Of a DNA stretch of 64,000 bases, positions 10,748-51,800 are shown piece by piece. Origin of the DNA: Chloranthus sessilifolius. Taxonomy: Eukaryota > Streptophyta > Magnoliopsida > Chloranthales > Chloranthaceae. Below the pieces are notes generated by a model that ran no database searches, had not been told where the DNA came from, and saw only the letters and a program-made list of their open reading frames with translations. How positions within the stretch are numbered: the stretch's first letter is position 1; every line of letters starts with the position of its first letter. Location of the stretch: contig CM037593.1 in the NCBI GenBank assembly GCA_021018995.1, positions 6,662,088-6,726,087 on the forward strand. The letters are read 5' to 3'. A program made the translations under genes and the position numbers.

Positions 10748-11168
10748 ATGGAAATGTTCCCGACAGCCAGACTAGAATGCTTAGCAAGGGCTACTTCCGA
10801 CCATAGGCCGGTACTGCTGACTTGTGATGTGAGGGGGAAGGGGCTGAGTCCGTTTTGGTTCGAAAATATGTGACTGTTGGATGAGCGGTTCCGTACGGTG
10901 GTATCGAAGTGGTGGGGAGAACTTAATCCTAGAGGAACAACAGTTTATCAATTCATTTCTAAGCTGAACAAGATAAAAAAAAAGTGCAATTGATTGGAAT
11001 AGAGAGGTGTTCGGAAATCTGCAAACCAATAAAGAGGCGATTCTGTTGTGACTGAGGGAGCTTGACGATTTGGAGGAATCCAGGGCTCTGACTGTCAATG
11101 AGCGCGATCAAAACAAACAGCAATTCAATTCTATTGCTAGAGCTGAAGAGGTCGCTTGGAACTAAAAG

Positions 11169-12535
11169 GTGAAGGTGCGGTGGCTGAAAGAGGGTGACCT
11201 AAATTCCAAATATTTTTATGTCATTGCCAATGCAAGGAATAAAAGGAACTACTTGGGGTCCGTGACTGTGGAGGGGGTGACGGCAGTCGATTATGACGAG
11301 ATTTGCGACCAGGTGGTTCGATTCTACTCAAAGCTCTATGAGGACGATGGACTAGTGCGGCCCGAGTTGGACGGGATTCCGTTTAACTTGCTCACTGTTG
11401 ATGAGAGGGATGACATCGAAAGGCTGTTCCAAGCAGAGGAGGTGTGGAACGCCATTAAGAAAGGGGGAAGGAACAAATCACTGAGACCAAATGATTTTAA
11501 TTTTGAATTCTTTCGAGTATTCTGGTCGACACTCAATGCTGAACTGATGGAACTTTTCCATGAGTTTCATAACACTGCTTTCATTGGGCGCGGCCTTAAC
11601 TCGACGTTCATAGCGCTCATTCCTAAGAAAGATGGGGCGCATGAGCTCACTGATTTCTGCCCGATTTGTCTCATTAATTGCCTGCATAAGATCCTAACGA
11701 AGGTGCTAGCTAACAGGCTAAGCCCCCTAATGGAGAAGCTGATCTCCGACTCGCAAAGGGCTTTTGTCAAAAGGAGACAGCTCATGGACCAGGTCGCGGT
11801 GGCCCACGAGATTATCCATTCTACACATTCCGACCGAGTTTCGACTACACTTTGGAAGGTCGATATGGAAAAGACATACGACCGCATTAGCTAGTCTGAC
11901 CTGGATTACATGCTTAGCAGGTTCGGTTTCAGAGTTAAATGAAGGAACTGGATGCGGGGGTGTTACTCTACCCCTTGGTTCTCGGTGCTGGTCAATGGTT
12001 CTCCAGCGGGGTATTTCAAAAGTTCGTGAGGCATTCGTCAGGGAGACCCACTCTCCCCCTTCCTTTACAACCTGATGGGGGAAGCCCTTGCGGGGCTTAT
12101 TGCTCGTGCAAAACTTCTAAATCTAATCTCGAGGATTAGAGTGGGAGCTCACGACCGATCCTTCACAATCCTACAGTACGCTGATGGCACGATCCTTTTT
12201 AGTAAAGCCAAAGTGGAGGAGTTCAAGAACCTGGCGGATGTGCTTACCGTGTTTGAGGCAATTTTGGGGCAGTGCATTAACTTCCAAAAATCCAAAATAA
12301 TGGGTATCGGGATTGATAATGCTATCGTACAGGAGCTGGCACACATAGTCCATTGCGGAAGCCAGCTGCCAGCTCTTGGGAGCTGGTGATTCAAAGATTT
12401 CAGCAGAGATTATCTACGTGGAGTGGCAAATTTCTCAGCAGTGGTAGCCGACTAATTCTGCTGAAGCATGTGTTGTCTAGCCTTCTGATCTTCTACATGT
12501 CTATGTTTAGGTGCCCAGTCGGTGTCTTACTGTAG
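11169..12535 (+). pseudogene. LINE ORF2, reverse transcriptase domain
   Basis: Seen in order: WLKEGDLNSKYFYVIAN, NDFNFEFFRVFW, NSTFIALIPKKDGAHEL, RAFVKRRQLMDQV, WKVDMEKTYDRIS, then in other frames LQYADGTILFSKAK and INFQKSKIMGIG. The catalytic YADD box reads YADG, so the domain would be inactive even without the stops. The order matches the L1 RT of plants. Confidence 0.88.
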
Positions 12536-15408: not shown

Positions 15409-18369
15409 AAATAAAAATCAAATAACTCTTTGGGTTGATTTTAGTGACCTACCCAGGCCCGCTATGGGAGGGCTTGTATTAAAAAGGGCGTCAACAGGCC
15501 AAGCTGGACTAGCACAGTTTGGGCCCAATTCAGGCTAAGGTAGTAGACCCAGTTAAAAATCGGGCACGGGCCTGGTCTGATTATGAAACAGGGTGGCCCG
15601 ATTTTTAAACCCAATTAAAAATGGGAGGTTCAAGCCCAGCCAAATTAAGCCTAACTGAGTATGGCTGGCACTTGGCCTGGCCCAGGTCGAAATAAATCGA
15701 AAATGAAAATTTATTTCAGTTGATTTTAATGGATGATGGGCAAAGGGGACCCATCGAGGCCCACTAAGGGTTGGGCCTGCAGTAGGGGCACAACTAGTGT
15801 TGTAACTTGTAAGTATCAAATCCGATCAATGGGTGGACTGCGGCCTGACCGGAACTATGAAATTTCGAGGTCTGGTCTATTGTTGGGGCAGTAATTGGGT
15901 CGGGCCAGCTCGAGTATTGGTTGGGTAAAGGTCAATCCACTCAACCCGAACTGTTCTGTTTAATTGAACTCCCATAAGAAAACGGGTTGGATTGGACCAA
16001 CTTAAGTTGAAATATACGATAAAGAGTTGGGCCCAGTCGGGCTGTGTCGGCTCTATTTGGGTCCCAGTTAAGAAACTAGGACCTGAACCAACCCGTTTAA
16101 TAAATTTCTGACCCAACCAAACCAGATGACTAGAGAATCTTTACCCAAGCGCGACCAGTCGCGGATCAGATCACTTGACCCAACCCTTTTGCACCCATAC
16201 CATACGCAATTAACGCATGTGGCAAAGTCGGATTCTACGTCCAAGCCCATCAAGCCCAACCCGTTTAATCGTATATACATCACCTCATCTAGGATTAAAA
16301 ACAGCAGGATTGGGCCTGATTTTCGGGCCTAACAGGTCCAGCCCATAAGCTATTGCATTCTACAAGTGGAAATAGAAGTAGAATTATATATCTATTACCA
16401 AGAATAAGACGGTAGCACAATACTTGAGGACTTCTAGGTTCATTCGGACATCATCCAAGCTCCTGCAAGGCACATGAATAACATTTGAGTTTCAATGGTA
16501 AAAGATTGCATGCTAACATTTGGCCTTATATATGGTAACCGACCCATTCAAAATTTAGAATGGGAACGGGTTACTTATCTTCGAAAGATTACTACATAGT
16601 CACCAAATCGTGGCTTGGCAATAGTTCGGCGAGGTGAAAATTCGAAAATATCCCGCAAATCCGGGAAGTTAGGAGAAATATTTGGAGGAAAAATCAGTGA
16701 GAAATTTTAAAAATAAAAATAAAAAGATATTAAATTATTAAAAATATATAAAAGATTAAAAAATTCGGGAATAATTCAAGGGGCCTTAATTTCGTGAATT
16801 TTTCACTAATTTTTCAAAAATTCAGCGATTTTTGTGACCATATTTACTACAAAGCAATCAAACACTTTCAAAATGAATGGTTACAACTGATTTTAGAGAT
16901 TTAAATGGTAATAGTTCGTTTTAAAAGAGTTTGACTGGATTAACTAAGTCATCTGATAGTAATATGCTTTCCATGTGATCTTCACATTGTGGTCGTCCGA
17001 TCACATGGCACACATGATGAAAAATAGTATCAGGAGTCAAAATCAATGACCTGCTCCCAATCTAGATTGTGAAAGGTTACTATATAACAAGCTCATATGC
17101 CTTGCTAAATGATATGAGAACATGGTTCAAAATTTTGCCCGAAATGAGACATTCTAATACGGACTTACACGAGATGTCTATAATAAAATTGGAGCAAGAT
17201 TCATCAACATTACAAAAAATAAATAAATAAACAAAATCCGAATTTTGATGATCGATGCAATTATCAAAACAAAAATCATGGAAAGTTGTTTGCTTGCTTT
17301 GTTTATTTTGTTTCTCCCTAAGTTGCCTTGAATTACTTATATCTCATTCCTAGGATACACTAAGGAGTAAGGACCGCCACTAGTAAAAACTTGTTTGTTT
17401 CAATAGCGACAATTTTTTGTTCATAACGACAGTTTTGACTGCCGCTAATAGTCTTATTTTTTGTAGTTATATGGTGAAGAAGGCTACTCTTATCTTTTTT
17501 CTTTCCATTTTATGGGAAACCCTACCTGTGCTTTTGTTGCCCTAGTCCAAAGTACGCAGCCAAGGTAGCCATCTGGAAGAAATCTCATGGGGTGAGGGTT
17601 TAATTTTTTATTAATCCTCTACTAATATCGAAACGATAAATAATTATACTTGCCTTAAGATTTCCCGCTCTCCTACCGAACTTACTCTTTAAGAGAGCTA
17701 AGGAATCGATCAACCCGACCGGCTCCGGTGATGGGCGACCAATATCGGCGAAGCACTCCCTGAGACGAACGCAGTCGAACCTCGTAATGTTATGTCCCGC
17801 CCAAATTCTACCTGTAAATTATAGTTAAAACGTAAAATTAACAGTTTAATCACATGATTTAGATCATATCGAAAAGGGGTAGTGTCTCTTAACCCACATG
17901 TAAACAATCTTGTACCATTTAAGTTAGACTTTTACTCTCACAACATTGAAGTGTGATTAGCATAAGTGGATGTAAACCATCTGATTGATGAATTTTAATG
18001 TCAGTCATTAAAACTGAAAACAATGGTTGATATTAAATTCTTTTAGATCGATATAAAGAAGAAAATCCATCCCCTTCTAGTAAACTTACCATTCAAAATT
18101 TCGAAGATTGTGTCTGCCACATCGTCGAATTTAGGAGCAACCGCGACTGCTGGTCTTGTGATCCCATTGCACCTTCTCGACGTTAACGCCACCGCCGATA
18201 GATCTCCCGGTCTAATGAGGGTGCAATAGCTCTCTAGCTCTACCAGCTTCCGCGGACAAACCAATATTGCACCAAACTCCAAGACCCAGAATCTTTGTCC
18301 GGCTCCGATGGGCACCGTAGTTTCCAAATCGAAGAACACGATCTCCGAGCTCCGGTTCGAACCTACCAT
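14787..18369 (-). CDS. NEN4: NEN4-like DEDDh 3'-5' exonuclease (six exons)
   Basis: Exons (minus strand): 18090-18369, 17654-17811, 17526-17572, 16399-16462, 15138-15308, and a last exon ending at the TGA at 14787. Phases join without a stop through exon 5 (240 codons). Motifs: DEDD motif I in EIVFFDLETTVP, then ILVCPRKLVELESYCTLIRP, motif II in RIWAGHNITRFDCVRLREC, DSLALLKSKFGRRAGN, MATLAAYFGLGQQKH, and motif III H..D in HRSLDDVRMNLEVLKYC, followed by LFLESSLPGVL. In Arabidopsis, NEN proteins degrade DNA when sieve-element nuclei are removed. The length (about 270-280 residues) fits the short NEN4 class. The ATG at 18369 is preferred because an in-frame extension upstream would start with TTG. 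Intron 2 has a GC donor (AAG/GCAAGT). The acceptor of the last exon (RSEPLDYVVSHSSLSL..FIKR) is uncertain. Candidate acceptors lie near 14935 and 14960. Confidence 0.87.
15309..16398. repeat. NEN intron 4: (TA)n tract plus GGGCC-type repeat
   Basis: Within the intron, 15338-15401 is a (TA)n microsatellite. About 15420-16350 is the longest patch of the dispersed GGGCC/GGCCC-type repeat (AGCCCGGCC, GGGCTGGACC, CCCAACCCG words on both strands). Several open frames read WARPSASHTQLG and similar. They are composition artefacts and not genes. Confidence 0.7.
15338..15401. repeat. (TA)n microsatellite in NEN intron 4
   Basis: About 32 uninterrupted TA units. Similar (TA)n tracts occur at 3755-3795, 4121-4170, 33838-33898, 36528-36598, 42603-42641 and 63460-63530. 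Confidence 0.95.
16594..16848. mobile_element. TAGTCACC-type MITE, copy in NEN intron 3
   Basis: Begins CATAGTCACCAAATCGTGGC and ends TTTTTGTGACCATATTT. Inside are TTCGGCGAGGTGAAAATTCG and AATTTTTCAAAAATTCAGCG. The same element, in opposite orientation, lies at 31839-32129 and 62240-62555, with a more diverged copy at 49765-49983. Ends are inverted (TAGTCACCAA / TTGGTGACTA). No coding capacity. Confidence 0.7.
17363..17470 (-). mobile_element. Remnant of a CACTA transposon end
   Basis: On the minus strand the sequence reads CTACAAAAAATAAGAC, then ATTAGCGGCAGTCAAAAC, TGTCGTTATGAAC, GTCGCTATTGAAAC and TAGTGGCGGTCC. Subterminal repeats of this type (T-rich with GCGGCAGTT/GTCGCTA words) next to a CACTACAAG-like end are typical of En/Spm (CACTA) elements. 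The terminal CA is mutated. It lies in NEN intron 3, on the 3' side of exon 3. Confidence 0.5.
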
Positions 18370-18734
18370 TTTTGTATTAAACAGAATTTGATTCAAATTT
18401 TGGGTTTTCTCCCATCATTTTAGACTATATATAAGGATGTTGATGGACAAGAAATGTTGGAGAATATGTGTTGTTTGTCTTGTAATTCAAGTCAAGAGAG
18501 AGAAAGAAGGCAGGGCTTCTCGCAACCCAAAAACAATATCCATAACACCAAGTAAACGATTCTCGTTAAGAGAGGAATAATCCCAAGAACAAGGGTGAGA
18601 TGCAACCTTATTTGGCTTTGAAAATTGGATGGAAACAAGGATTCTGACTTTATAGAGAGGTTTTCCTTCACATTTTATTTTGTGGGTGCATGTGCAATGT
18701 GGAGTTTTCAAGAAGTCATCTAATGCCCGCATTT

Positions 18735-23255: not shown

Positions 23256-26200
23256 TCATCGTTGAGGAAGGCTACCAATGGCTTTTATCCCTGCAACACA
23301 ACTGCGATCGGAGCTCATGAACTTCTCATGGGTGACTTTGAGTGGACCCCCACCCCCTGATCTATGAAATCTCACAATCATATCTCCACAGGCCCTACAT
23401 GTGACAACAAAATTCACGTCCCCAAGCAGAAACATTAGACGTCGAGAACCAATGATAGAAATGAAGGTGAAGAACCTGAGACAACTTATTTCCTGCAAAA
23501 GAGCTTCCCCCGAAATAGTGATTTTATAAAAATATTTTTTTTTCTACTTCTGCGCCATTGGTGTTTTAGAGTTAAAATGCCAACAGCACAGAAGTAATCC
23601 TTCTTGGCTTATCCAAAGGAACTGTTGTATATTGTGCAATTCACATTAAAACTTGCTGTCCAAATAGCTGTGAAAATTTGAGAGAAAAGCTTTCTTAATG
23701 CACCATATACAGAAGTGCTATGCCTGTTTTTTCATTGGGGAAGAGGCTCGCCACAGCAGGATATATGAATTACGAGAAATTTCAATTACAAAAGACATGT
23801 AACATGGCGTGATCAAAACGAATGATGAGGATGGAATCCAGGTAGATCACAATCAAATATGTTGCACGTGTGATCATGATCCACGCCATCTACAGATCAG
23901 CTATTTAACCAAAGAACACACCAATAGGGCTATCCTAACCACCCAACAGTGAGCAAATGCGCACTCAAACAAATATAGGCAACACTCATCAATATGATGG
24001 CCTGCCACATTATTGGACTGGGGTAGAAATGGACTGAATTTTATGTTCAAGCCCGTCCCAAGTAAACGCTAACAACTCAAAAAGGAGAAATACAAAATAT
24101 ACCTGAGGTGTGATTCTTCGTAATGAGTGTGTTTGATAAGCAATTCTGTCCAAGCTGGAGCCATTTGTAGGGTACATCTCGCAACATAGATTGCCGATGC
24201 ACATAGCAAAGAGGGTTTGAACTTTAAAGCTTCATACTCCACTAGGCACAATTCAATTAGGTAGAAAGCTAAATTTTCAAGCTGTTTAGAAGATACACGA
24301 AATTAAAGAAGTGTTACCAAAAATTGTAGCAATCGTGTAAATAACATGAACACTTCTAAAACAATTGAAAAGAAGAGATGAACATGACCATGAAAACGTC
24401 TATGTTCATTCGAGCCGTTAAAGGCATTTCATCAAATTTGTAGCAATTGTGTTATTATTCTGAAACACATTCATTTCCTAGCTCTAAGTAAGCAATTATT
24501 GTCATCACAAGGGATCCCTGTTCCTAGACCTGTAAAGAATTATATAAAGAGTACCTTTCTTTACAATCCAAGATTCTTCCTTCTCAACCTGGGTTTCATA
24601 TGCTTAAACCGTTGACTGCCTTGAATCTGACGATGGAGATCGTTACTAATCCCAATCGTCGACACAACAGATCTTGAGATCATTGGCCTTCCATGAAATG
24701 GCCAGATTTTGATTCCACATGACATACATCCTGAAAACGAGCGTGCATCAAATGTGGTTCCCATTCACTTTTAGAAATGTGTGCCACGTGGAATCAAAAT
24801 CTGACCGCCTGATGATAGGAGCATGATCTCAAGACCAATTGTATCGAAGAATGGGACAAAAACTATCTCCATCGTCTGATTCAAAGAAGTCAACGGTTCA
24901 AACACGTAAAACCCGGGTTGTGAAGGAAGAATCTTGGGTTGAAAATATAGGTACCCTTATACAAATTATAAAAGTGCCAGTAGTACCTTTGTATCCGATT
25001 GAGCAGCCTTGAGAAATCTTAACATGAAAACATATGGAGTTGGAGCATTCAGACGAAACATCAACTTCTTAAGGATAAGCTTCTCCTGTAAAGGGAGGTA
25101 GATTATAGTTTAAATCTCCATAATACAAAATAATAATAATAATTATTATTATTATTATAGATAACTGGAGATGCACACCATTGCAAGCATTTGGTCGCTT
25201 GTGTAAGAGCCAAGTGAGATGCTAACCAAATCTTTGATCTGTGATCATTTACAAGCAAAAAAAAAAAAAGATAAGCAAATATAAACTTCGTATGGCTAAG
25301 CCTGATGCATAGATTATGTTTCATTGGAAACCATTGGAGACAGTCAGACAATATCTACCCTTGGATGCCAGAAGTCTTCATACTTAGATGCTAGCAAGAG
25401 TGCAGTAAGACCAACCAACTGTATTTCATCTTTTTGTATGGGGGTAATAGAAAGAAATCTGTCAAACAGCTCTACCATGAGAAAGAGTGTTTCTTGCATC
25501 AATTGAAATTTGTGGTGTACCTGTAACCAAGAGAAGAGAGGAAAAAATTGTTGCTCAATTTTATTCAAAAGTTGTGAGAAAAAAAAACATAAGAGATTCA
25601 TCAAAAAAGTATATATCGTACTTCAATTAGCCAGTTGATCAATATCCCACGCATTCTAGGAGATAAGTCTTTCTGAATCGACATGTAATTTGCCAAGGAA
25701 GGATTTTGTAACTGCCATTACAAGCCAAATTAGCAAAGTCATAACCGTAGCAATATATCAAATACACATCTAACAAATACGAAGCCAACCCTAAATACAA
25801 GCCATAACAAGTGTTCAGATTATGTTTATCTCTCAAAGTACAATAGGAAATGGGATGATAGACTTTGATGAGATCAAAAGTACTTGGCATATTTTTGTTG
25901 AATTTGGTGACAAAATATGACAGATTAATCATTGTCTTCCTGTGTGTGCACTAATAACCATAATTTATATCTTAGTATCAGTTATAGATGAATTTTGAAT
26001 TTAATTTTCAACATATCCTTGATGACTGATAAAAAAGAATGCCAATAATATATCCTACAAAATGGAGATATCTTAAAATATTAAATTAGATTCATTTTTT
26101 CTGAATGTAGAAAAAAAGATGATTTGAAAATTATAAGAATTGCATAATGGAATTGTAATAATCAAAAGCTAAAATTCTTAAAAGAATCTTTTCAGAACCC

Positions 26201-28247
26201 GAACATCTCAACATACATGATAAAACCTACATTATATGAACATAACTATGTTTACAGGAGGAAAAAATTGCCCAAATTGCAAGTTAAGATATCGTTTAGA
26301 TTTAACAGATTAATACATGTGTATTCAACCCAGAAAATTTTCGAAATTTTAAAGCACCAAGATCTAATTAATGAGGTGATGGTATTTACAACCAGCAACA
26401 CAATTTTGGGGCATCTCTGAAGCAAATCATGATGTTCTAGAGATTGATGAAGAAAGAAAGTTCAACAGACACCATTCTAGAACGTTCAACTCTTATGAAT
26501 ACAGACCATCGTCCAGAGTTTGGATGATGAAAATTTGATACATGGAAATGCCGTAATATAAAAGTCAACCAAGATAATTAAATAAAAGTGGTACAGTTTC
26601 ACCTCCATTATCCAATAATATTGATAGATGTCATCAACATATTCCACTACTTCTAAATGATTAGTATTATCATCAATGTTTGGTAGCTCTTCCTGCTTGG
26701 CAAAGTCTGTGCAATCACCCAATACCTGCCCAAACAATGTCAATTATAATTAGAGGCCCGGGACTATACATCCGGACGTAGCCCAGAGGGCTGCGTTCAC
26801 GTCAGCTAGGTACCACGTGGCACCCATCACAAGGATCGGATGCACGGCAACTTAGACAAGATTGATCAGGTACCACCCAAAAAAGTTTGGCATGATTGAA
26901 TACATAACCATTGTTGAAAAATCAAAGAAGCCTAAAACCAATGCACCAAGTTGGTTGGGAGTTACCTTATCTATGACCCATCAAACAGAGGGCAGAAAAG
27001 TTAAAAAATATAATTTTTGTCGTTTAACTTTAAAAGCACATGGCCCATGGCTGATCAACCCAAAACAAGTGTTGGTTTGGTTGATCATGCCACCTGGCAT
27101 GTGATTGGGCATCCGGGTGTAGCCCTCTAGGGCTACATCCGGATGCATTTCCCCAATTCTCTTATAATTAAACTGCATAAACATAAAAGAATATTGGTAA
27201 GCTTAGGTGAAAATTAACCTCGGATCTTGCCATTAGCGAGGATGTATAAGATCTTCGACGACTTTGTTTGGGTCTAGATATTATCGCAGTCACAACCTTA
27301 CTTGAGCAGCCATTGTCACCAGACGGAAGCTTCTCTTGGCTATTTTCATGTGAAATCACCTCTGCAATATCCTCACGAATTAGCCCAGTTGCCACTCCCC
27401 CTTCCTTTTTCTTGAATGGATTTAGAGTAGTTGATTTGGAAATTTTCTCCAAACATAACACATGCTTGGACTTTGAAGTCACTTGGACCTTGGAGCTTGT
27501 TTGTGTAATTTTCCTAATTGTCTAGATCATGAAACAAAACAATGAGATCCAAACCACACAATTGGCAGGACCACTATGCATAATAGCCCACATTAGAATT
27601 GTGAATCGTGCATGTACCAAAGGCAAATATTAGAAAGTAAGCCATTTCACTACAGAAAAAACATGATAAGTGCATTTAAAATAATTCAAATAAGTACTCA
27701 AAACCAACTGTTTCACCCAAATAAAGTTATGAGATTCTAAAATTCGGCAGAAAGAAGACAACATTTTATCAGACAGAAGTGAGATTAGAGTTTATGAACC
27801 TCAATGCATAGAGCAACTATATTAAAGGAAATTATTCAGCTTTTGAAAATCTCACATGCAAGTCCAATAATTTAAGGGAGGAAGTGAATTACAAAATGAG
27901 AATATGAGAATGGATCAAGAAAACTTAATAAAAATGTGAATAACACTATGAGTTGCTTCAAGTACACAATATATGAAAGAACCCTTCGCGTAAAGCTAAT
28001 ATCTCATATTTTAGCCTGCAAGGACAAAACAACAACTTAGAATAATTAAATAACGATAAATAGAGAAATTTTATTATAAAACTGGATACAGAAAAACAAT
28101 GAAAGGCGCGACTTGCGAGAGAATAACACAAAGGATTACTTAATTATGCACAAAATAAAAAATAAACTTTACTTTGAAGGTAAAGCTAAATCTTAGCTAC
28201 ACAAGGTCAACAATAAGAACCTAGAATAACATTGGCAGAAGCAAGGT

Positions 28248-28741: not shown

Positions 28742-31700
28742 ACCGCTAATCCCACACCAACATTTATTTATCGCACTCTTGTTAATGAAATTACAGATGA
28801 CACACCAGTTAATACTATACACACATCAATTATTGAAAAAGGCAAATCACAACATCAATGAAATTGCTAATCTCACATCAATAATACTATTCGCACACTG
28901 ATTAATATATTCCTCTTTTTCAGATGGTGTACAACAAGTAAATGATGGTTTGGAAGTAGCAGCTCTCAAAAGCGAGAGAGAGAGAGAAAGGGAGTGTTTC
29001 ATAATAAAACTAATCTCATTCATAGGTTGATTGTTAAATTTTAATTTGCATATTGGGCTCTTTTGACTTCAACTTTCCAGTTCATGGGAGAGGACGAGTT
29101 AAGAAGGAATTGGTCAGCGGTTATTTACAATAGATCAACCAAGGATAAAAGCTTTAAGTGTTTCATGATAAAGTTAATCTCAGTCATAGGTTGATTTTTA
29201 AATTTCAACTTGCATCATCGACTCTTTCGACCTCAACTTTCCAGTTCATGGAAAAGGATGAGTTGAGAAGGAAATGGGTCAGGGATTATATACAATGGGT
29301 CAACCAAGGATAAAAGGAAGTCTAAGAGCATCTCCAACCACATATGTTATTTATAGCCGTTGGAGATGCATATGTGGCAAATTTGGCATAGCCACTTGAC
29401 TATGTGGCAATTTGGCATATGAGAGTCACAAAGTGAACTCCAACCACATATATCAAATCTATTCTTTTATTATTTTTCTATCTCACACCACATCACCAAA
29501 GGGTTCCCAACGGTCATCTGTTTTAAACAAGTAGGAATAAAATAATATAAATATTAAATAACGTCTCACTTTTTGAGACGCCAAATTTGACATACCAAAA
29601 GGAAAACGCTAAATCCACATCACATTTAACGCTTGGGTTGGAGTGAGGGAGCTTAGCTGGACTGTTTTTTTTTTTGTCCGTTAAATGAGCCTAGTGAAAA
29701 ATGACAGCTCCCGTTGGAGATGCTCTAATGTGGGTTGCTCCTACACCAGGGACGATGTAGATAAATTTGGATGAATGACTCTTTAAGAAATCTGGGTCTA
29801 GGTGGGCCCAAAAGGAACTCAAATGAATTAGTGGCAAGATCCAACTAGTGTGACTGTAATGAGGTGGAACTTTGTGCCCCTTAGTAGGGATTCTTACAGT
29901 GCGCAATTGGTTGTTTCCAGCGACAGTGGAAGAACTAAAAGTTCCATTGCAATACTTAAAACATGATCCGAAGTGCAATGGACATTGATTGATTATCTGG
30001 ACAATGCACCGGATATTTTGCCTTCTTCCCGATTTGTAAGTCTCCCACGTTCCTTGTGAAGCAAAACGCTTAGAAGGACTTGCTAGCTAAGGAGGGTGCA
30101 TCCAGAGCCAATCTTACAATGGTGTGCTGATCCGATCTGAACTTCTCCCCAACAAATCATGTTATTTATTTCTTTTACTCTCTTACATGTTATTTTCCTT
30201 TATTGCCATTCTCAGCAAAAAAAATGTAATAATAACAATAGTAATAATAAAAAAGGACACATCTCATGGATCCACAAGTTGCTGATTTGCTATTTGAATT
30301 TCAGGGAAATTAAATGGTGATTTGTATTACGAAGAAACTAGATTTCATGAAAAAGGCAAGCCGATTAGAAAAACAGCTTTGTGAGTAAAAAGAAACTTTC
30401 ACCAAGTAGAATTTCATAGCATAAACCAGCATATATGCAGTAAGACACATAAGTCAGCAATCTATCTACAGGAGTTGATCAAATACTTGTCAGGTGAACC
30501 CTTTTCGTATTGCATAGAGTAAAAAACAACTGGACATTTTCCATTAAGGTAAGTTCACAGAATAATTATATAGGATATAAAAGAAATTCTTCCCAACTTG
30601 GAAATCCAATTGAGTTGCTAGGCCAAAAATGTCTAGTACTAAAAAGGGGTGTTTTCAAGATCTTACATACCCCAACAGATATTTTTGATGATCTATTTAA
30701 ATCCACGAGCTTCTGACTTGCAGAAGAAAGCCTACTAGCACAAATTGAGCACCACATAAGACCTATTAAAACAGATCATGAATAACAAATGAATTGAAAA
30801 TGGAACAGGTAGAGAAAATTTTCCTACCTCGGCCAATGTAGAACCTTCCCACTCTGAGTTTTGCTGCAAAAAAAACAGACAGAAATTTGAGACATGAGAA
30901 ACACTAGGCTTTATTATAGAAGATCTTTGCCTATAACAAGTTATGAAATATAATAATGCATAACAGATACCCTGATACCAAATTCTTTTTCCCACTTTGA
31001 TTTTTTCTGCATCAGCAATCAAAGAATTCAATAAGGAACAGATAGCTTTCCAGGAAAAAAAAAACATGATATAAGACGCCAAAGAAAACCCCTGGACATT
31101 TTCTAGAAGATTTAACTGTATCTATATTCTAGCATGGGAAACACAAATATTTCCTTCCCTGATTGATCTAAAGTCCAAATTCTTACTTACATAAGCTTTG
31201 AGCCATCACTTGATCTGTTTCTTAGCTGATAGTTTCCAATGCTGCTGATTCCCACCAATGTTTTTCTTCCAGTCCTAATTTCTACCAAAATCCAACGATT
31301 ATTACTGGAGGTATTCTTAAGCCTGATAAGGCATGTTTTATAAAACAAACTATGCATTGGCAATTTTATGTTAAGTTTTGTAAAACTTATAAGTAGCCAA
31401 TGACCCCAAGCTTACCAGAAGTACTTCGTTTGATCAAAATTTTCTCTGATTTGTTGGCATTTGCCTGATACATGATAAAGAAGAACAAAATGAATTAGAG
31501 ACCCCTTTATTCTAAATGGAAGGGCATACGAAAGAAGACCAACTAATAAATGCAGCGACCTTCAAATTACTCAATTTACGGTCAGCCTCTTTACTAATTT
31601 CAGTCACTAATTCTCTGCACATTACAGAACACATATTAGTCTAAACTCTAAATCTAGTCAACACTCGATCTGAGATTTAGTATGATAAAAACTTCATTTA

Positions 31701-33833
31701 CCCTGATGAAGAATCCCTGCAAACTCTTTGAGAAGCAACAGACTTCCTTCAAATCAAAAGAATAATAATCAGGGAAGGCATGGCATAAATTCCATAACAG
31801 ACAGCATAAACACTAAACATGGACAACAGATACAAGCATAGTCACCAAATTCTTCAAATTTTTGAAAAATTCACGAATTTAAGGTTCTACGAATTATTGA
31901 CAAATTTTTTTTAAATTCGTGTGTTTTAAAAAACTCATGAACTTCGCGAATAATTCGCTAATAGTTCATGAATAATTCACAATTTTTTTCAATATATCGT
32001 GATTTTTAATATTCTTTAGATTTTTTATATTTTTTCTCCGATTTTCCTCTGAATTTTACCCCTAGCTTGCCGGATTTTTTTGAATTTTAACCTCGCCGAA
32101 TTATTGCCGAACCCCGACTTGTGACTATGGATACAAACAGTGTATACAAATAATGTCACCCAACTTACCGTATTACCATAGGAGGCTTACTTGCCATCTT
32201 CCTGTAAAAGAAAGGAAGGTGCTTAATAACATTTTCCTCAAACTTCAAAATGTTCCATGAGATCTGGATTTGAAAGAAAAGAATACATAAAATAGAGAAA
32301 CAGATTGAATTACCCATCATTAAGATTGATAGATCTATGAGCCTGGGCATTGAATTTCTCATTCTCGGAATAAGTATTTAAACCTCCAGTACCAACTAAT
32401 TCACAAACATTCACACAATTCAGCACCAAAAAAGTAATAGATAAAGTAAAAAATATATGAAGAAAAACATTGCAAGATTATAAATTCCCTTAAAAATATC
32501 TAAAACAAGCAATTTACCACTGTCTAAAGTGTGAAAATCTTTTGCCACCTGAAGACTGGCCCTGGTCCTTCCCTAATATAATATAACAAGATAATAATCC
32601 TCAAGTTAAAATTTTGTATAAAGTTTTTTTTTCAACCAATAAATTAGTCATCTTTCATGGAGTGGCGAAAAAGCAAAGCAGATATTAAGCAGGTGAAGAT
32701 GAAAAAGTCTCTCTTGACAAATTGCAGTGGGCTTCAACTGACAAGAACCACACAAATTGTGTTGGTCTTATTTCCTTACAAAGCAAACTTCAGGTTGTTT
32801 TAATACTAGACTTATTCCCTTCATCTATAAATTTGCATTTAGTTTCGTTCTAGTTTGCATGAATGTTTTTATGGGATATGATTTGTTTTCTTAAATAAAG
32901 AGAACGGTGTCCCTCAACTAACATGGCATGGGAGGTCAGGAGTTGTGACTGGATCACGATTCACGATCTCAAACAGTACTGACTATTCGGATCCATGTAG
33001 GCCTAGAATTGTCCAAAGTTGGCAATGAGGTGGGAAAGCTCATCAGCATGGTTTGTTCCAATCATAGATTATAAGTGCATAGTTTGATTGCCAGGAGCCT
33101 TAAATTTTAAAATATGGGATCTATTATTATGGATGTGACTTAAGTATTTTGAACCATTGGATCATCATACAATTTTTTTATATTATTTTTAACAAAAGTA
33201 ATTTATATTTAATCAATTATTACGGATTTAGATGCAATAAATATTATTGGAGGGATTTGGGAACAAAAGTGAAAATCCTAGGAGCTTCGCCCCACTCTTG
33301 GATGAAGCTCATGATTAACCGATGGGATGGACTACTCGTGACACAATGTGAGCGAGGCCAGCTACAAGGCAAATGCTTTGCTAGGGAAGGAGTGATCCAA
33401 AATTTTCTTATTTCTATGACAGAGCATGCCTTTCCATCTTGCTTGATATATGGGCAAGTTGATTGGTTGATGCTTCTTTCAGAGGAGTTGTCTGTTGGAT
33501 GTAACTTATTCAAATTTCTATTGCATCGGTACTTGTAGTTGTTATATTAGGGTGCGGTTGATTTCACATAGCCTCAATGTGACCACAATGTGTAATGGAT
33601 TCTATGTCGATAACGCATAACCACTCTTGCATACGAGGGGTTGGGCTCATATCACTTTTTAGCTACGCATAGCTCAAAATGTGCAATGTGCATAAGGTCC
33701 AACCGCCATCAAACAAGTTCTCACATGTCGACTCATGTAACCCCCAAATACACGTCTTTAGGGGCCATTATGTGCAATCAAACATACCCTCATTACTCTT
33801 CAATATGTATACAAATAATTAAGCATTACTATT

Positions 33834-33904
<71 letters not shown>

Positions 33905-36526
33905 CATTTACATTTCTTTTGACAAATAAAAAAATTTTATTAATAAAAGAAAAAGAAGAAACACATTTTTATTCAATAAGTTTCTCTCTATATGATAAAA
34001 ATCCATCGGTCGATCATGTGGTACACATATATGGAAGTGATACAGTGAGCATCATTTTACAATATATGTGCTACATAATGGTAGAAAATTTGTATTTGTG
34101 GAAGAATGTGAATGGATTATTTTGTACATAAGCTTAATTGTAATTTGTCTTCAAAAAACCAAATAGTCTTTGAAAAATCACAACAGATTGCCATATGCAA
34201 GTATGATCTTGCTAGTGGCATATTCTCTTATGAAATTCATTGTAACAAGGCTTAATAGACAACTAAAAATTCCAAGAGCAAAGTATTGAGAATGTGAAGA
34301 AGGAATTAATTGAGAAAATGAAATATACAATTGAGGATGGAGGTCGAGGATTTGATCAATAGCGTGCCCGGATATGGTTGTAGATGCATTTACTTAAAAA
34401 ATAGGACATAGATATCCATGAAAGAAAAAATTTGGTAACAGACAAACCATAATCACTTCATATCTTGGAAACATTAGTAGAAATGCTATGAGGATCTCAA
34501 AATTCGAGTTGAGGCATTATAATGAAATTCAACATGAATAGATGACCAATCAAACTAATTGTAATCATATTCCTTTCCCATCAAGAGAAGAGAGGAAGAT
34601 GCAACTTGGTTCCTTGATTTCGACCAGTAAGCTTTTAGTTGCACTCTTAATAGCAAGATTATGGCAGTAATCGTAGTTTCTGCCTTTTGGCTTTGGCATA
34701 GTAGTGTTGAGAGACTTTAGGAAACCTTTCTATGATTATTCATTGTGTTTCATATCAGTAATTGAAAATCATATATGCATCATATGGAATGATATTTTAA
34801 TTTTTAACTCTTGTTTAGGCCATCTAATGTTATCGCTCACTTGATGATGTTACACTGGAAACAAATTAACCTTTTAAGACAAAATCCATAGAACAGAGAT
34901 GATAAGGTGGAAGTCGCAATTCTAGGGTGGAATTGAATTGCCAATTCCACATTTTCAATTTGATTGGAACTTAAGGGGATAGAAGTGAATTGAAGTGGAG
35001 CCCACAAGTGGAATTCACTTCCACCCACCAATTCCATCACAGCAAAAATCAATTCCACTCATGAAATGGCTGAAGTGCCAATTCCACGGGGCAAAATAGT
35101 CATTATGAAACAATTTGAATGAATTATTTTAAAATTCATTTTTTTTTCTTTTATTAGTATTGCCAAAAATACTCTTTTCCAATTCCACGGTTATTTCCTA
35201 GAAAATCTAATCAAACAGTGGAATTACAATTCTAGGGAAGTTACTTTCCACACAACATAATCAAACAAGAGAAGTGTCATTTCCAAGGTAATTCATTTCC
35301 AAGGAAGTGAGCATGGAAGTGCTAGTTCACTTCCAAGAGCTGAATTCCAAGTTATCAAACAGGGCCTAAGGGGAAACATAAAATAGAAAAGACCGGACTA
35401 AGGACGCATTACATACCACGACAAGTTTTCTTGATAATGAGTTTCCATCCACAATATTCTGACTCTCTTGAGCCCTACTAGCATCGGTCAAAATAGCATA
35501 CACATGTCAATTCATGAGCAAAAGATAATTAACAAGAAAGCAATTAAGAAAAGTTAGATGGTTGGCAAATAAATCCGTACCTTGGCCCACAAGGACTTTT
35601 TCCATGATGAGTTTTGCTGCAAGAAAGCATAGACACATTAAAATTTTACAAACAAAACACAATATCTTACATATAGAAAGCATTTTATAAACTAATCTAG
35701 ATAGCAAGAGGCTAAGAAAAGCATATTAACCGACATACGTTTGCAACAAACTACTTCTCTCACTTTTGTTCTTCCTGCATCGTGACCAAAAAATAGATTA
35801 CACATTGCTTAGAAATAATTTCCAAAAGAATGACTGCTTAGATACAATTGCCCAGGGAGTGTGTGTGGATATATGATCTTGGTTAGGTCCTCCAATGGAG
35901 GATGGTGAGAATTCTCTAAGATCCACATGGAGCTCCATCTGGCACTCAAAACATGTTTCGGGTGCCATGTGGTGCAAGAGGGCATTGCATAGATCATTTG
36001 AGAAAGAAAAAATATTGAAAACCCATCTCCATGACAAAAGTCAACAATTGACTATAATCAACAGTCCCATTTTCAAAGAGAATCAATCACAAGGTGGAAA
36101 TTAGATGTAACTTTTTTTTCAATTGATTTATACATTTTCCCCTTAGTCCATGTGGCAACAAAACAGAATTTGAAGTGACACATGGCATTTTTTTAGACAC
36201 CTTGGAAGATGCTCGCCGACCTTTTTTAGATACCTTGGAGGACCTTACCTTCTTCATACATGTAATGGAAAATACACTTTTAGCAATGACACTTATGTAA
36301 ATATGTAAGAGAAAGAAAAGAAAAGCAAACAAGAGCAATGGGATACAGAGATGCCCTTCATTAAAACTACCAAAAATACATCATTACTCACATCAACATA
36401 GAGCCATCACTCAATCGGTTCCTCAATGGATAGCCCCTAACATTGCTTACATCAGCCAACACTTTTCGCCCAAACTTACTTTTAACTAAATCCAACAAAC
36501 AATAGTAAACAAATTATTAAAACAAA

Positions 36527-36603
<77 letters not shown>

Positions 36604-37671
36604 TTAGTTCTCTATAACACACAATTAAAAGTCTATAAGCATGTGCATCTCACCATTAGTATCACATTTGCCCATAATTTTCTCCTTATTTTTTACATTT
36701 TCCTTAACATTGCTGACATCAGCCAACACTCTTCGCCCAAACTTACTTTTAACTAAATCCAACAAACAATAGTAAACAAATTCTTAATACAAAAGTATAA
36801 ATTTAAGTTTAGTTCTTCATAACACACAATTAAAAGTCTATAAACATGTGCATCTCACCGATAGTATCACATTTGCCCATAATTTTCTCCATATTTTTTA
36901 CATTATCCTACAAAAGAATAACAAAAACATGTAATGTGATCAACAAAACCCATCTATTCTAACCAAAAAAATGCATCATAATTCATAAAACATTAAAAGC
37001 CAATAAAATCAAGTCAACCTTTGCATCATCGGAATCAATCTTGTCAATTCCCTTCTTAATAACATTAATAGGTGCTGATTTCCTTCAATTGAAAGAAAAA
37101 ACGAAATAAATAAATAAGAATAATAATATCAATTCACTGATTGACAACTTAAAAGCATAAAAAATCGCGCTCACCTTGTCACAACCATTAAAGGCTTTCT
37201 TTTGATCTTCCTGCCACAGAAAATAAAAAATAAAAAACACAAAATGAAGATCATAATTATATTCAGAAATTCAAAAAAAAAATTAAAATTAGAAAAAAAT
37301 AATAATTAAAATGAAAATTTAATAAAAATTATGGATGGAGTATTACCCGGCTTCTGCGTTAATCGGTCTACGAGACGGACCGATTACCTTCTCGACATCC
37401 GAATAAATCTTAAGATCTCCAAAACCAACTGTTTCGAGAAAATTCAACGAAAAATCAAAGAACAAACACGTAAAATATGAAAAAATAAATAAATAATTTT
37501 TAAAAATGGGAGACGTACCATTCTTGAAATTGCCGCAATGATCGGCAATTGAAGGTTCATTAGCCTTAGTTTTTCCCTGATTTCCAGCAAAAACCAGCTT
37601 CATTAACGAATTCAACGGCTGATATTTAAAATTTTGGGGGCATTTGATTTACTTGCCTTGAATGATACCAT
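23256..37671 (-). CDS. CYCB3-1: Cyclin B3;1 (CYCB3-1), 29 coding exons, ~774 aa
   Basis: Exons (minus strand): 37657-37671, 37519-37576, 37347-37428, 37175-37210, 37019-37082, 36859-36907, 36654-36752, 36392-36485, 35739-35774, 35581-35616, 35417-35474, 32518-32572, 32314-32395, 32169-32201, 31702-31746, 31560-31614, 31416-31464, 31191-31281, 30971-31006, 30828-30863, 30671-30731, 27219-27521, 26603-26725, 25622-25711, 25359-25520, 25179-25238, 24987-25085, 24103-24281, 23256-23394. They sum to 2325 nt, in phase, ending TGA. Cyclin-box signatures: HLEVVEYVDDIYQYYW, MRGILINWLIEVHHKF, VELFDRFLS, GLTALLLASKYEDFWHP, FRLNAPTPYVFMLRFLKAA, SLLCASAIYVARCTL. The C-terminus reads KVTHEKFMSSDRS. B-type cyclins activate CDKs at G2/M, and B3;1 acts in mitosis and meiosis. 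The N-terminal half carries D-boxes and a KEN box for APC/C destruction. Intron 1 has a GC donor. The gene identity is firm. The small N-terminal exons rest on splice-site, phase and repeat consistency. Confidence 0.9.
23839..24102. other. Part of the last cyclin intron
   Basis: The 708-bp intron 23395-24102 carries no recognisable element or exon. This piece includes a CACGTGTGATCATGATCCACG inverted-type word but nothing I can name. Confidence 0.3.
24545..24968. mobile_element. Foldback MITE, GTACCT-type family, in a cyclin intron
   Basis: Imperfect palindrome of about 420 bp. The left arm has AGATTCTTCCTTC, AACCTGGGTTT, ACCGTTGAC, GATGGAGAT and ATCTTGAGATCAT. The right arm carries the complements (AAGGAAGAATCTT, GGGTTGTGAAGG, GTCAACGGTT, ATCTCCATCGTC, ATGATCTCAAGA). 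The ends GAGTACCTTT / ATAGGTACCC match the GTACCTCTA ends of the copies near 39.3 and 42.2 kb. Sits wholly in the intron 24282-24986. Confidence 0.75.
26769..27151. mobile_element. Non-autonomous DNA transposon with CATCCGGA termini in a cyclin intron
   Basis: Inverted ends: ATACATCCGGACGTAGCCC(A)GAGGGCTGCGT at the left and, inverted, GGGTGTAGCCCTCTAGGGCTACATCCGGATGCAT at the right, about 35 bp with few mismatches. The core has no protein domain. I could not fix the target duplication, so the superfamily is open. Confidence 0.7.
28996..29315. repeat. Two-copy tandem duplication, ~159 bp unit
   Basis: GTGTTTCATAATAAAACTAAT begins at about 28996 and GTGTTTCATGATAAAGTTAAT at about 29158. Both continue through CATAGGTTGATT, CTTTCCAGTTCATGG and GGTCAACCAAGGATAAAAG-like wording. 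Moderate divergence between copies, so older than the neighbouring microsatellites. Confidence 0.85.
29326..29725. mobile_element. Tourist-like (PIF/Harbinger) MITE with TAA target duplication
   Basis: Inverted termini GAGCATCTCCAACC (29326) and CGTTGGAGATGCTC (to 29725), flanked on both sides by TAA (29323-29325 and 29726-29728). The 3-bp TWA-type duplication and GAGCATCTCCAAC end are hallmarks of this widespread plant MITE group. Element length 400 bp, no coding capacity, inside a CYCB3-1 intron. Confidence 0.9.
30671..32572 (-). repeat. CYCB3-1: CYCB3-1 N-terminal exon block, copy 2 (ten exons)
   Basis: Exon lengths 55, 82, 33, 45+55, 49, 91, 36, 36, 61 match copy 1 (58, 82, 36, 64, 49, 94, 36, 36, 58), with one exon split in two here. 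Phases agree at every matching junction. Peptides also match: GRTRASL / GKTKANE, VGTGGLNTYSENEKF / VGFGDLKIYSDVEKV, KMASKPPMVIR / KIKRKPLMVVTR, NKSEKIL / KNMEKIM, GRKTLVGISS / GRKVLADVSN, QLRNRSSDGSKL / PLRNRLSDGSML, KTQSGK / KTHHGK. The D-box equivalent is RKTLVGISS, with Ser in place of the final Asn. Protein divergence is high, so this duplication is old. Confidence 0.88.
31839..32129. mobile_element. TAGTCACC-type MITE in a cyclin intron
   Basis: Starts CATAGTCACCAAATTC, ends GAACCCCGACTTGTGACTATGG. Internal AAATTCGTGTGTTTTAAA and CTCCGATTTTCCTC words. Reverse complement of the NEN-intron copy (shared TTCGGCAATAATTCGGCGAGG). Located between exons 31702-31746 and 32169-32201. Confidence 0.75.
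33838..33898. repeat. (TA)n microsatellite in a cyclin intron
   Basis: About 30 TA units in the intron joining the two duplicated exon blocks. Confidence 0.95.
34905..35372. mobile_element. hAT-like MITE, right end TATCAAACAGGGCC
   Basis: The right end reads GTTATCAAACAGGGCCTAA, the classical terminus of plant hAT-type MITEs. Inside, AATTCCA/TGGAATT words recur on both strands (GGTGGAATTGAATTGCCAATT, TGGAATTACAATTCTAGGG), forming weak foldback. The left end is eroded and not fixed. Confidence 0.55.
35875..36000. repeat. Diverged single unit related to the 3.8-6.0 kb tandem array
   Basis: GTCCTCCAATGGAGGATGG, CACATGGAGCTCCATCTGGC and GGCATTGCATAGATCATTT parallel the array words CCTCCATGGAAGGACGAT, CACGTGAAGCTCCAAATAGC and GTGCATTGCTTAGATCATTT. 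This small palindrome-bearing module is therefore dispersed, and the array amplified it locally. Confidence 0.6.
36100..36291 (-). other. Unplaced Lys/Ser-rich open frame in a cyclin intron
   Basis: The minus-strand frame reads MKKVRSSKVSKKGRRASSK, then SKKMPCVTSN and LRGKCINQL, protein-like in composition and following a good pyrimidine-rich acceptor region. However, its natural donors do not restore the phase needed between exons 36392-36485 and 35739-35774, and the second exon block has no counterpart. It may be an abandoned or alternative exon. The model leaves it out. Confidence 0.35.
36434..36910 (-). repeat. CYCB3-1: Young tandem duplication creating a fused D-box/KEN exon
   Basis: Two near-identical units: about 36434-36707 (including a private (TA)n tract at 36528-36598) and 36708-36910. 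Each spans the D-box part of one exon, an intron, and most of the neighbouring exon. The seam joins GCTGATGTCAGCAATGTTAAG directly to GAAAATGTAAAAAATAAGG, so exon 36654-36752 reads RRVLADVSNVKENVKNKEK. Near-identity of intron as well as exon bases shows the event is recent. The extra 99 nt keep the reading frame. Confidence 0.9.
37611..37622 (+). promoter_or_regulatory. MSA-like AACGG motif in cyclin intron 1
   Basis: TTCAACGGCTGA contains the AACGG core of the mitosis-specific activator element (consensus YCYAACGGYYA), with two mismatches. It lies about 45 bp inside the transcript from the start codon. MSA elements bound by three-repeat MYBs drive G2/M genes, including plant B cyclins. One such short match can be chance. 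Confidence 0.25.
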
Positions 37672-48874: not shown

Positions 48875-51800
48875 ATGGCTTTCCATTGCAGGGAATCTCT
48901 CTCCTCCAAAACCCTAATTTCAATGGCTACGATTCACTTTATCTTCTTTTCTCTGGTCTCCCTAGTTTCAACCACGGTGGTTGCAATTTCAATTACAGGT
49001 CTCTCTCTCTTCTTTTTCTCTCTCTAAGATTAAATATCACATGTAAAAACACATATATTCTAAACCGATACAGTTGTACATTAGGTGCACGGACCGTGTA
49101 CCGCCGGTGGTACGCGGACCAATCTCTGTCCGTTTCCATGGTCAACTGTGTACTTGCACATGTTTCTTTGATGTTAGAAACCTGCGCAAGTCTCAGCTTT
49201 ATTCGTGCAGGCGAACTGAGATTGGTCCGTGTACTATTGGCGGTGCACGGTCCGTGTACAATAGCTGCAGATGCTTTGTGTCAGTTGAAACTCTGGATTT
49301 ATTAATATTTTATGGCCTGAGATTTTGACTTTGTATTAAAATAGGGAATTATTTGTTTTATATTATTATATCTTCTCTTTGTAGTCATTTTTAAAATTCA
49401 CATGGTTCCTAATTTTTTAATTGTGTCGATAAGAATTTCACCTATCATTTTTGTTTGCTACTCATCAATTATCTTTAATTTTTTTTTTATTGTAGCAATT
49501 TATTTCACATTATTTTATTGAATTTATATATTATATTTCTATTTTCTAATTATTCAAATAAAATTTTGAAAGTTATTGATTACATTGTAGTTTTCATGGT
49601 CGTTGGCTGTAATTTTATCATGCATCTAGCTTTTTTCATTTCTATATACCCATAAAAAAAATTCCATTTTTTTTTCAAAAAATATAATGCTTGCAATTTT
49701 CTATTTTTCTGTTGCATTTTCAAATTAAATACTATTGGATAATCGTGGTAATTGAACCCTTGACCCAAAGTGACAAATTTCGTTTTCGGTAATTTTTTGG
49801 TGGGGGGGTCCTTGCGGTACATTTCGGATTAATTTCGATATATTTCGGAAAAATTTCAGGAAAGTTTCGGAGATTAAAAATATATAAAAAATATATTATT
49901 TCGCCAAAAATTACTGAAAAGTACCAAAATTTTTGTTTGACCCCCTTTTCGGCGAATTTCGGCGAAATTTGTCACTATGCCTCGACCTCATTTAGCAGGG
50001 TTTCAATGGATCGGGCAAGGCCTTAAATGGGCTGATTTCATATTGGTCATAAAACCGGGCCTCGTTACGAATAAGGCTGGGTCCAATTACTAATCAGCCC
50101 GATTACCCCATCCAAACCATGCCCAAACAGGATTCAGTCTGGGCCATATTCAGGCCAGCTCGGCTTATTATTGGTCGGGGTCTCTTAATTGGGTCTACCA
50201 CCCGGTCCAATTAGTAATCAGGTATAGGGACAATTACTAATTGGGCCTAATATTTCAGCACAAACATGACCCCCAAACCAGCTGAGCCATGTTACGGCCT
50301 GGCCCGGCCCAGCCTGTTGACACTCGTATTGGTGATACATTATTGAGAGCATCACCACTGGGGCAAAGGTCCAATCCTAATCCCATGGTACAAAAACTGA
50401 TGTAATACTTATACCTGGGCACGATGTTTCAGAGTTTTCATGCCTCAAATTATCGTGTTCATACCATCCCCGTGATGATACAATGCTTCTATCAGTACCA
50501 TACTATAGTGATAGCCTCTATCACAAAATTATCTTAATTAATCAAAATTTTAGAAAAATTCTCCGAATAGGTGATATACCGAACCTTTTGTTGAATATTC
50601 TCTTGATTCATCGATTCTCCAAATTTTGTGAATTTTCCAAATTTCAATCATTGTTTTCTATGATTGAAAATTGTTAATGAATGCGGACTATGTAATATAC
50701 TACACATTGTTTTTAATTTTAAATAGTTATCATATATTTTTATATATTTTAGTAATATAATCTTTTTATAATCCGCAATTATTTTTTTTCTTAAAATTTC
50801 CCTAAATCTTTCCCGAATTTATCCAATTAAACCGAATGGACACTCCAACAAATGATTGCTGAATACAAGTTTGGTTACTATGACTGATAGCTGGAGAACG
50901 CCCTAGTTGTTATATATATGTGTGTGTGTGTGTTTTAAATGATAAATGCATTTTATGTGTGTTCTTAATTTACATTAAATCATTTCATGCGAAAATACTT
51001 ATCAAAGACTAAAATTCTAAATGTCATTGTAGTTATCACTTACTATGAATCTTAGAATAGGGGTCATATGCAAGCACATAAGAAAAGGGCATTAATTGCC
51101 TTATCTTTATTGAAGTGCTCATTTTTCCTATTCTAGAATAGGTGTTCAAACTGATTATTTGGCCTAAAACAAAAACTTAAGCAGTGGCATTAGAAGATCA
51201 AGAAGGTCTTGATCAATGGGTGAACATATATGGTGAATGATGCTTGCATATTTAGGTGTAATGGGAACTCAAGTGTAATTATATGCCTATATGTTGATAA
51301 CATTCTCATCGTAGGAACGGAGTTGGAGGGTATTAATGACACTAAAAGCTCCCTAAAATCCAACTATTATATGAAGGATTTAGTTGTAGCCAAAGTAATT
51401 CTTAGATTAAAGATAATATACGTTAAGGATGAGATTGCTCTTATTCAGAATGATTATCGAGTTAGAAATTTGATTATATTCCAGCTCTTACTCTGTACTG
51501 TTGAGTTTAGTCCCACATCGGACAATCATAACCTCGTCTCTCCTTTTATAAGATCCTGGGCCACCACTCATCTCCAATTGGTTTCAAGTTGGATGTCTAT
51601 ATAGAAAATAAAGATGTTAATAACTAAAGAAGAGAAGATACCCATTTAGGGTTTATTGGAGAGAGAGAACAAGAGAGAGGGAGAGGGAGAGGAGAGAGAG
51701 GAGAGAGCACAATAACCACAGAGACTACATTGTTGCTATTCTAATATAGTTTGAGAACAAAATAGAGCCCCGTTATATACAGGGCTACATAGAGACCAAT

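Follow-up and report, generated by a model that had tools for sequence, protein, structure and literature searches.

An old doubling of an exon block, with a recent duplication nested in it, in the N-terminal half of a CYCB3-type cyclin gene of Chloranthus sessilifolius

The CYCB3;1 genes of tomato, Arabidopsis and Brassica encode B-type cyclins and are unusually long and rich in introns. In the passages of the literature covered here, tomato CYCB3;1 is listed with 739 amino acids and 24 introns and the Arabidopsis gene with 22 introns, the two extra introns of tomato being attributed by the authors, as a suggestion, to the insertion of a DNA fragment (PMC3907801). For Brassica rapa, CYCB3;1 proteins of 585 and 653 amino acids are given, with 19 and 20 introns, respectively (PMC9699369). 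Most genes of group 3 in Brassica napus have 21-23 exons, BnaCYCB3;1b having only five, and CYCB3 is reported only in eudicots among the plants of that study (PMC11207893). For the B1 and B2 genes of B. napus, 5-10 introns are printed.

Two further systems are related in kind. The cyclin B3 of placental mammals has also grown greatly outside the cyclin box, there by the extension of one exon (Lozano et al. 2012, cited in PMC11811201). Intragenic tandem exon duplication, as generally described, copies phase-symmetric units in frame within a single gene.

Here we describe a gene from the window, i.e. the whole 64,000-nucleotide stretch of Chloranthus sessilifolius DNA that was analysed, which resembles each of these systems in part. 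Compared with the published CYCB3;1 genes, it has 28 introns, 774 amino acids and a recent extra exon; in contrast to the cyclin B3 of placental mammals as described, the growth came from duplicating a set of small exons rather than from extending a single one; and unlike the usual tandem exon duplications, the event comprised about nine exons at once, affected a disordered region with a predicted degron and was followed by a second event nested in the first. The gene thus combines duplications of two ages, and its disordered regulatory region was multiplied stepwise without breaking the frame. A literature search (titles and beginnings of abstracts, with few subscription journals covered) returned no internal duplication in CYCB3 among the matches listed, and block doubling and nested event are apparently previously unreported. 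The phrase 'internal duplication' in the covered part of PMC3095333 denotes TPR repeats of APC subunits, not CYCB3; the covered parts of PMC13237563, PMC13360074 and PMC7763586 hold nothing on CYCB3.

Gene model and cyclin identity

On the minus strand, from position 37671 down to 23256, 29 exons yield a single uninterrupted reading frame (774 codons and the stop codon), the model being an open, spliceable frame read from the genomic sequence. Introns follow the GT-AG rule in 27 of 28 cases, intron 1 being GC-AG. Exon 1 is tentative, because an in-frame ATG just 5' of exon 2 offers an alternative start. The coordinates, exon lengths and phases given in the initial annotation, including the phase-0 intron of 2,844 bp (2.8 kb) between the blocks, were all reproduced (Table 1).

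Table 1. Positions of the gene's features within the window, and of the segments matched by a copy on C7.
Feature	Positions	Strand	Remarks
Exon 1	37657..37671	-	tentative (5 codons), followed by the GC-AG intron
Block 1, exons 2-11	35417..37576	-	ten exons
Exons 2-6	37576-37519, 37428-37347, 37210-37175, 37082-37019, 36907-36859	-	block 1
Exons 7-11	36752-36654, 36485-36392, 35774-35739, 35616-35581, 35474-35417	-	block 1
Recent tandem duplication inside block 1	36435..36907	-	unit of ~205 bp, ~93% identical, intron included
Exon 7	36654..36752	-	fused extra exon, 99 nt, phase 1-1; RRVLADVSN, with KEN at the junction
Exon 8	36392..36485	-	predicted destruction box RKVLADVSN
Intron between the blocks	32573..35416	-	2,844 bp, phase 0
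Block 2, exons 12-21	30671..32572	-	ten exons
Exons 12-16	32572-32518, 32395-32314, 32201-32169, 31746-31702, 31614-31560	-	block 2
Exons 17-21	31464-31416, 31281-31191, 31006-30971, 30863-30828, 30731-30671	-	block 2
Exon 18	31191..31281	-	counterpart of exon 8; degenerate box RKTLVGISS at aa 321
Exons 22-29	23256..27521	-	linker and cyclin box; Cyclin_N aa 523-649, Cyclin_C aa 651-765
Segments matched by the C7 copy	36258-36509 and 35809-35854

The C-terminal part contains both cyclin domains (Pfam E values of 7.9e-42 for Cyclin_N and 7.2e-33 for Cyclin_C), and other Pfam families on the 774-residue protein are limited to two, at E values no better than 0.14 and 0.49. In the cyclin box, plant B-type cyclins carry the signature HxKF, where A-type cyclins have VxEEY. 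The gene described here reads HHKF. Among seven hand-picked cyclin loci of the same genome, four read HYKF, HYKF, HNKF and HHKF (L037, L038, L039 and L043, respectively), two read EEY (L040 and L041), and the match at L042 did not span the site. A search of the PDB gave 45 sequences at E values up to 1e-20, named cyclin A2, A3 or B1, with no B3 among them. Both domains, the HxKF signature and RxxLxxxxN in the N-terminal half (aa 108 and 141) characterize the protein as a plant B-type cyclin. Of the initial assignment to cyclin B3;1, the B-type part stands on domains and HHKF, and the provisional name CYCB3;1 rests on the gene layout: with 28 introns and 774 amino acids, the gene exceeds all printed CYCB3;1 values, and the wealth of introns recorded for the tomato and Arabidopsis genes of this name in the covered part of PMC3907801 agrees with it.

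Two exon blocks in the N-terminal half

The N-terminal half had been proposed to be internally duplicated as a multi-exon unit, to be checked by a self-alignment for similarity above background. The similarity is indeed far above chance, the exons are collinear and their phases are equal. In a local BLOSUM62 alignment, block 1 without exon 7 scores 208 against block 2 (shuffled sequences: mean 36.2, sd 6.7, 0 of 2000 as high); keeping exon 7 gives a score of 219 against a shuffled mean of 38.4, again reached by 0 of 2000 shuffles. The reversed-sequence control equals background (163 of 500 shuffles as high). BLASTP of block 1 against block 2 returns an E value of 9e-23 with 65/180 identities, and a global alignment has 65 identical residues in 167 ungapped columns. 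Start and end phases are equal in all nine exon pairs, which holds for 28 of 200,000 permuted orders. The in-order agreement of the paired lengths (block 1/block 2: 58/55, 82/82, 36/33, 64/45+55, 49/49, 94/91, 36/36, 36/36 and 58/61) is equalled by 29 of 200,000 permutations; since the phases are equal, the length differences are multiples of 3, and this is hence not extra evidence.

Scored exon by exon, the best match in block 2 is the positional counterpart for 8 of the 9 block 1 exons. The signal comes mainly from two pairs, namely 8/18 (15/31 identities, z = 16.7) and 3/13 (12/28, z = 12.6). Two pairs are middling (4/14, z = 4.8; 6/17, z = 3.4), and the pairs 2/12, 9/19, 10/20 and 11/21 are weak on their own (z between 2.3 and 2.9). 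The pairing of exon 5 with exons 15 and 16 (6/22 identities) is the weakest: it is not a best match, no alignment rises above background, and order and phase are its sole support. The weak pairs and the one lacking a signal are what might be expected if lysine- and serine-rich disordered sequence resembled itself by chance. We regard the probability of such a chance likeness as negligible, given that none of the 2000 shuffles scores as high, that the reversed control stays at background and that order and phases agree; the shuffled and reversed controls refute it. An exon-block duplication within one gene is thus indicated by sequence for eight of the nine pairs and by phase for all nine, and the best reading, confirmed at the level of the sequence, is that a single ancestral block gave rise to both exons 2-11 and exons 12-21. 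Exon 22, compared with both blocks as protein, resembles neither.

We note that the unit had been described as ten exons. The doubling holds, but its size is nine exon pairs: block 1 reaches ten through exon 7, which arose in a separate, recent duplication, and block 2 through the split of exon 5's counterpart into exons 15 and 16. Within both blocks, the adjacent 36-nt phase 2-2 exons 9/10 (35774-35581) and 19/20 (31006-30828) are themselves weakly alike (P = 0.004 and 0.019 as DNA, P = 0.04 and 0.005 as protein, among 10 pairs tested, exclusive of the 5 that involve exon 14 with its 33 nt), which is no more than suggestive of a third, older tandem exon duplication.

The ancient age assigned to the doubling is borne out. 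Nucleotide identity between the blocks is 58.5% over 501 aligned sites, and the NG86 method gives dN = 0.517 and dS = 1.064 (bootstrap range of dS 0.72-1.75; dN < dS in 299 of 300 replicates). The introns of the two blocks are nearly unalignable, short matches extending from the exons across the splice sites. Together, dN < dS and the hardly alignable introns imply an old duplication whose copies have been retained as coding sequence.

The introns on either side of each block are in phase 0, which makes the block a phase 0-0 cassette whose gain, loss or skipping would leave the frame intact. The simplest origin would be an unequal exchange between the intron before and the intron after this phase-0-bounded block. 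A comparison of the two long introns gives a best match of 28 bp (E = 0.007), with no clear intron homology that marks recombination points. We consider it probable that the locus is one CYCB3-type gene in which a nine-exon block of ~170 residues was doubled by unequal exchange, a putative APC/C degron being what matters in this block.

The long intron at the seam bears on two other origins. It might separate two neighbouring genes or transcripts, a truncated one made of block 1 and a cyclin that starts near block 2. With 2,844 bp, the intron ranks among the gene's two longest, read-through past exon 11 soon meets a stop, and one TATA-like TATAAAAA lies within the intron, in addition to seven TATA-like sites in its AT tract. 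However, a phase-0 junction connects the blocks within a single open frame, an in-frame TAG precedes exon 12, no exon-1-like start was found in the intron (best match with 5/15 mismatches), and block 2 is also trailed by a long intron (3,149 bp) before the cyclin exons; we regard separate genes as improbable. The mitotic MSA core has no match within 1 kb 5' of exon 1 and one reverse match in the 2.8-kb intron, a result that, like the TATA-like sites, carries no decisive weight. The same block order with a long intron at the seam would also be expected if a tandem duplication of the whole gene had been followed by deletion of the first copy's cyclin box and the second copy's start, fusing both. 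Against this fusion, which we hold to be unlikely, no relic of a cyclin box is detected in the 2,844-bp intron (best tblastn E = 2.3, with the same query recovering the true exons), although a relic of that age may escape detection.

The doubling of a block within one gene, as preferred here, could explain in evolutionary terms why CYCB3;1 has so many introns. By arithmetic from the 29-exon gene, one block corresponds to 560 amino acids and 17 introns, and two blocks without exon 7 to 741 amino acids and 27 introns. The published CYCB3;1 intron counts covered here fall between 17 and 27; the tomato protein (739 amino acids) is near the two-block value, whereas the shorter B. rapa protein (585 amino acids) is nearer to the one-block value. 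The sizes in tomato and Arabidopsis are a hint, though no proof, of a doubling common to eudicots, and the shorter B. rapa copy speaks less for this. In our view, the doubling is probably shared and was followed by loss of introns, but it may instead be partial or independent.

The nested duplication and a possible degron array

Block 2 holds nothing that corresponds to exon 7. This exon is a fusion: the 50 nt at its start are a copy of the head of exon 8, and the remaining 49 nt are a copy of exon 6. The duplicated unit runs from exon 6 through intron 6 into exon 7 as far as nt 50 (205 bp), and its repeat takes in the other 49 nt of exon 7, the whole of intron 7 and the first 50 nt of exon 8 (267 bp). 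The difference in length is located in an AT tract expanded in intron 7. Exon 7 is the product of a separate, recent and in-frame duplication that the initial annotation had missed. Between the copies, 7 of 99 exon sites differ, as do 8 of the 106 intron sites that align, an intron figure that depends in part on the alignment of the AT tract; exon and intron divergence are equal, and the new copy with its extra box therefore bears no sign of selection. Long AT tracts are found at ~36531-36600 (intron 7, in the recent duplication) and at ~33836-33900 (in the 2.8-kb intron).

The doubled block carries a predicted destruction box, strict in block 1 and degenerate in block 2, a feature likewise overlooked at first. 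Strict boxes (RxxLxx[IV]xN) occur at aa 108 (exon 7, RRVLADVSN) and aa 141 (exon 8, RKVLADVSN), i.e. two against 0.02 expected in shuffled N-terminal sequence (P = 0.0001). The two are copies of one and hence not independent: one box was present and was then copied. Other motifs are within chance, namely KEN at aa 118 (the exon 7 junction, P = 0.15) and an ABBA-like LKIYSD at aa 30 (P = 0.08), which lacks the initial F with which the ABBA signature begins as printed in the covered part of PMC9357983. The N-terminal half had been called disordered, in agreement with charge-hydropathy values that place it on the disordered side and the cyclin part on the folded side, a call made on composition (charge, hydropathy) alone.

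The key content of the block would be a putative APC/C degron. Block 1 may have kept its canonical destruction box as a working degron, and block 2, drifted and with a degenerate box, may now serve another role, e.g. spacing or spindle targeting. The later in-frame tandem duplication added a second canonical box, together with the letters KEN at the junction. With more boxes per protein, the chance of capture by the APC/C might rise (allovalency), and the timing of cyclin destruction might thereby be tuned. Such a function as a degron array is what we infer from the sequence. Several degrons per substrate are discussed as allovalency in the covered part of PMC9289945, where animal cyclin B3 is also discussed as being destroyed later than B1. 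In Arabidopsis, CYCB3;1 is described at the spindle in metaphase I, lost in anaphase I and back in metaphase II, and the pollen mother cells of mutants develop wall-like structures in the wrong places (PMC3649987); a GFP line cited in PMC7943633 disagrees, CYCB3;1 being absent in metaphase II. Disappearance at anaphase I is the behaviour that an APC/C substrate would show. The literature passages covered do not state a destruction-box requirement for CYCB3;1 degradation. Whether the number of destruction boxes sets the time at which the cyclin disappears is a question that can now be tested.

The doubling may also be real with the blocks serving microtubule or nuclear targeting, the destruction box merely being carried along. 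This is a possibility of some weight, although not the one we favour: the box of block 2 is degenerate, LRNRxSDGS and YS..EK are among the best conserved parts of the blocks and lie outside the box, and CYCB3;1 is spindle-associated in Arabidopsis according to the covered part of PMC3649987. Against this reading, the exon pair with the destruction box, 8/18, is the best conserved of all nine (15/31). Returning to the degron reading, we put forward as a rather doubtful extension that plant CYCB3 has, in its N-terminal half, an array of degrons growing by frame-neutral exon cassettes, with an old doubling in most flowering plants, lineage-specific additions of boxes and skipping of blocks (from exon 1 to 12, from 11 to 22 or from 1 to 22, each a phase-0 junction), which would give isoforms of differing stability in meiosis.

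Copies in the genome and other features of the window

The 2.17-Gb assembly was searched for further copies of the gene. Block 1 gave nine matches among the best-scored candidates, eight in the locus and one on C7, and block 2 gave six, all in the locus. The cyclin part gave 57 matches among the best-scored candidates, of which the eight with at least 84% identity all fall in the locus, the rest having at most 55%; a second CYCB3-like gene was not found among the best-scored candidates of the assembly. A scan of prokaryote contigs with the cyclin box gave 30 pattern matches, 0 of them confirmed.

The match on C7 (135417154-135417448; L019, L020) is a stray copy of exon 8 that includes adjoining intron sequence and is 92% identical over 252 bp. 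No other CYCB3 exons were recognised in the 30 kb examined around it, and it is probably a captured gene fragment. A stretch of ~400 bp in intron 8 (35855-36257) is absent from this fragment and has ends that, by eye, resemble inverted repeats; it is likely a MITE inserted after the fragment was copied.

Outside the gene, the window contains reverse-transcriptase fragments of the families RVT_1 (6399-6866, minus strand; 11166-12389, plus strand) and RVT_2 (51224-51604, plus strand). An exon-like frame at 18043-18414 (minus strand) matches the RNase_T exonuclease family and perhaps belongs to a neighbouring gene.
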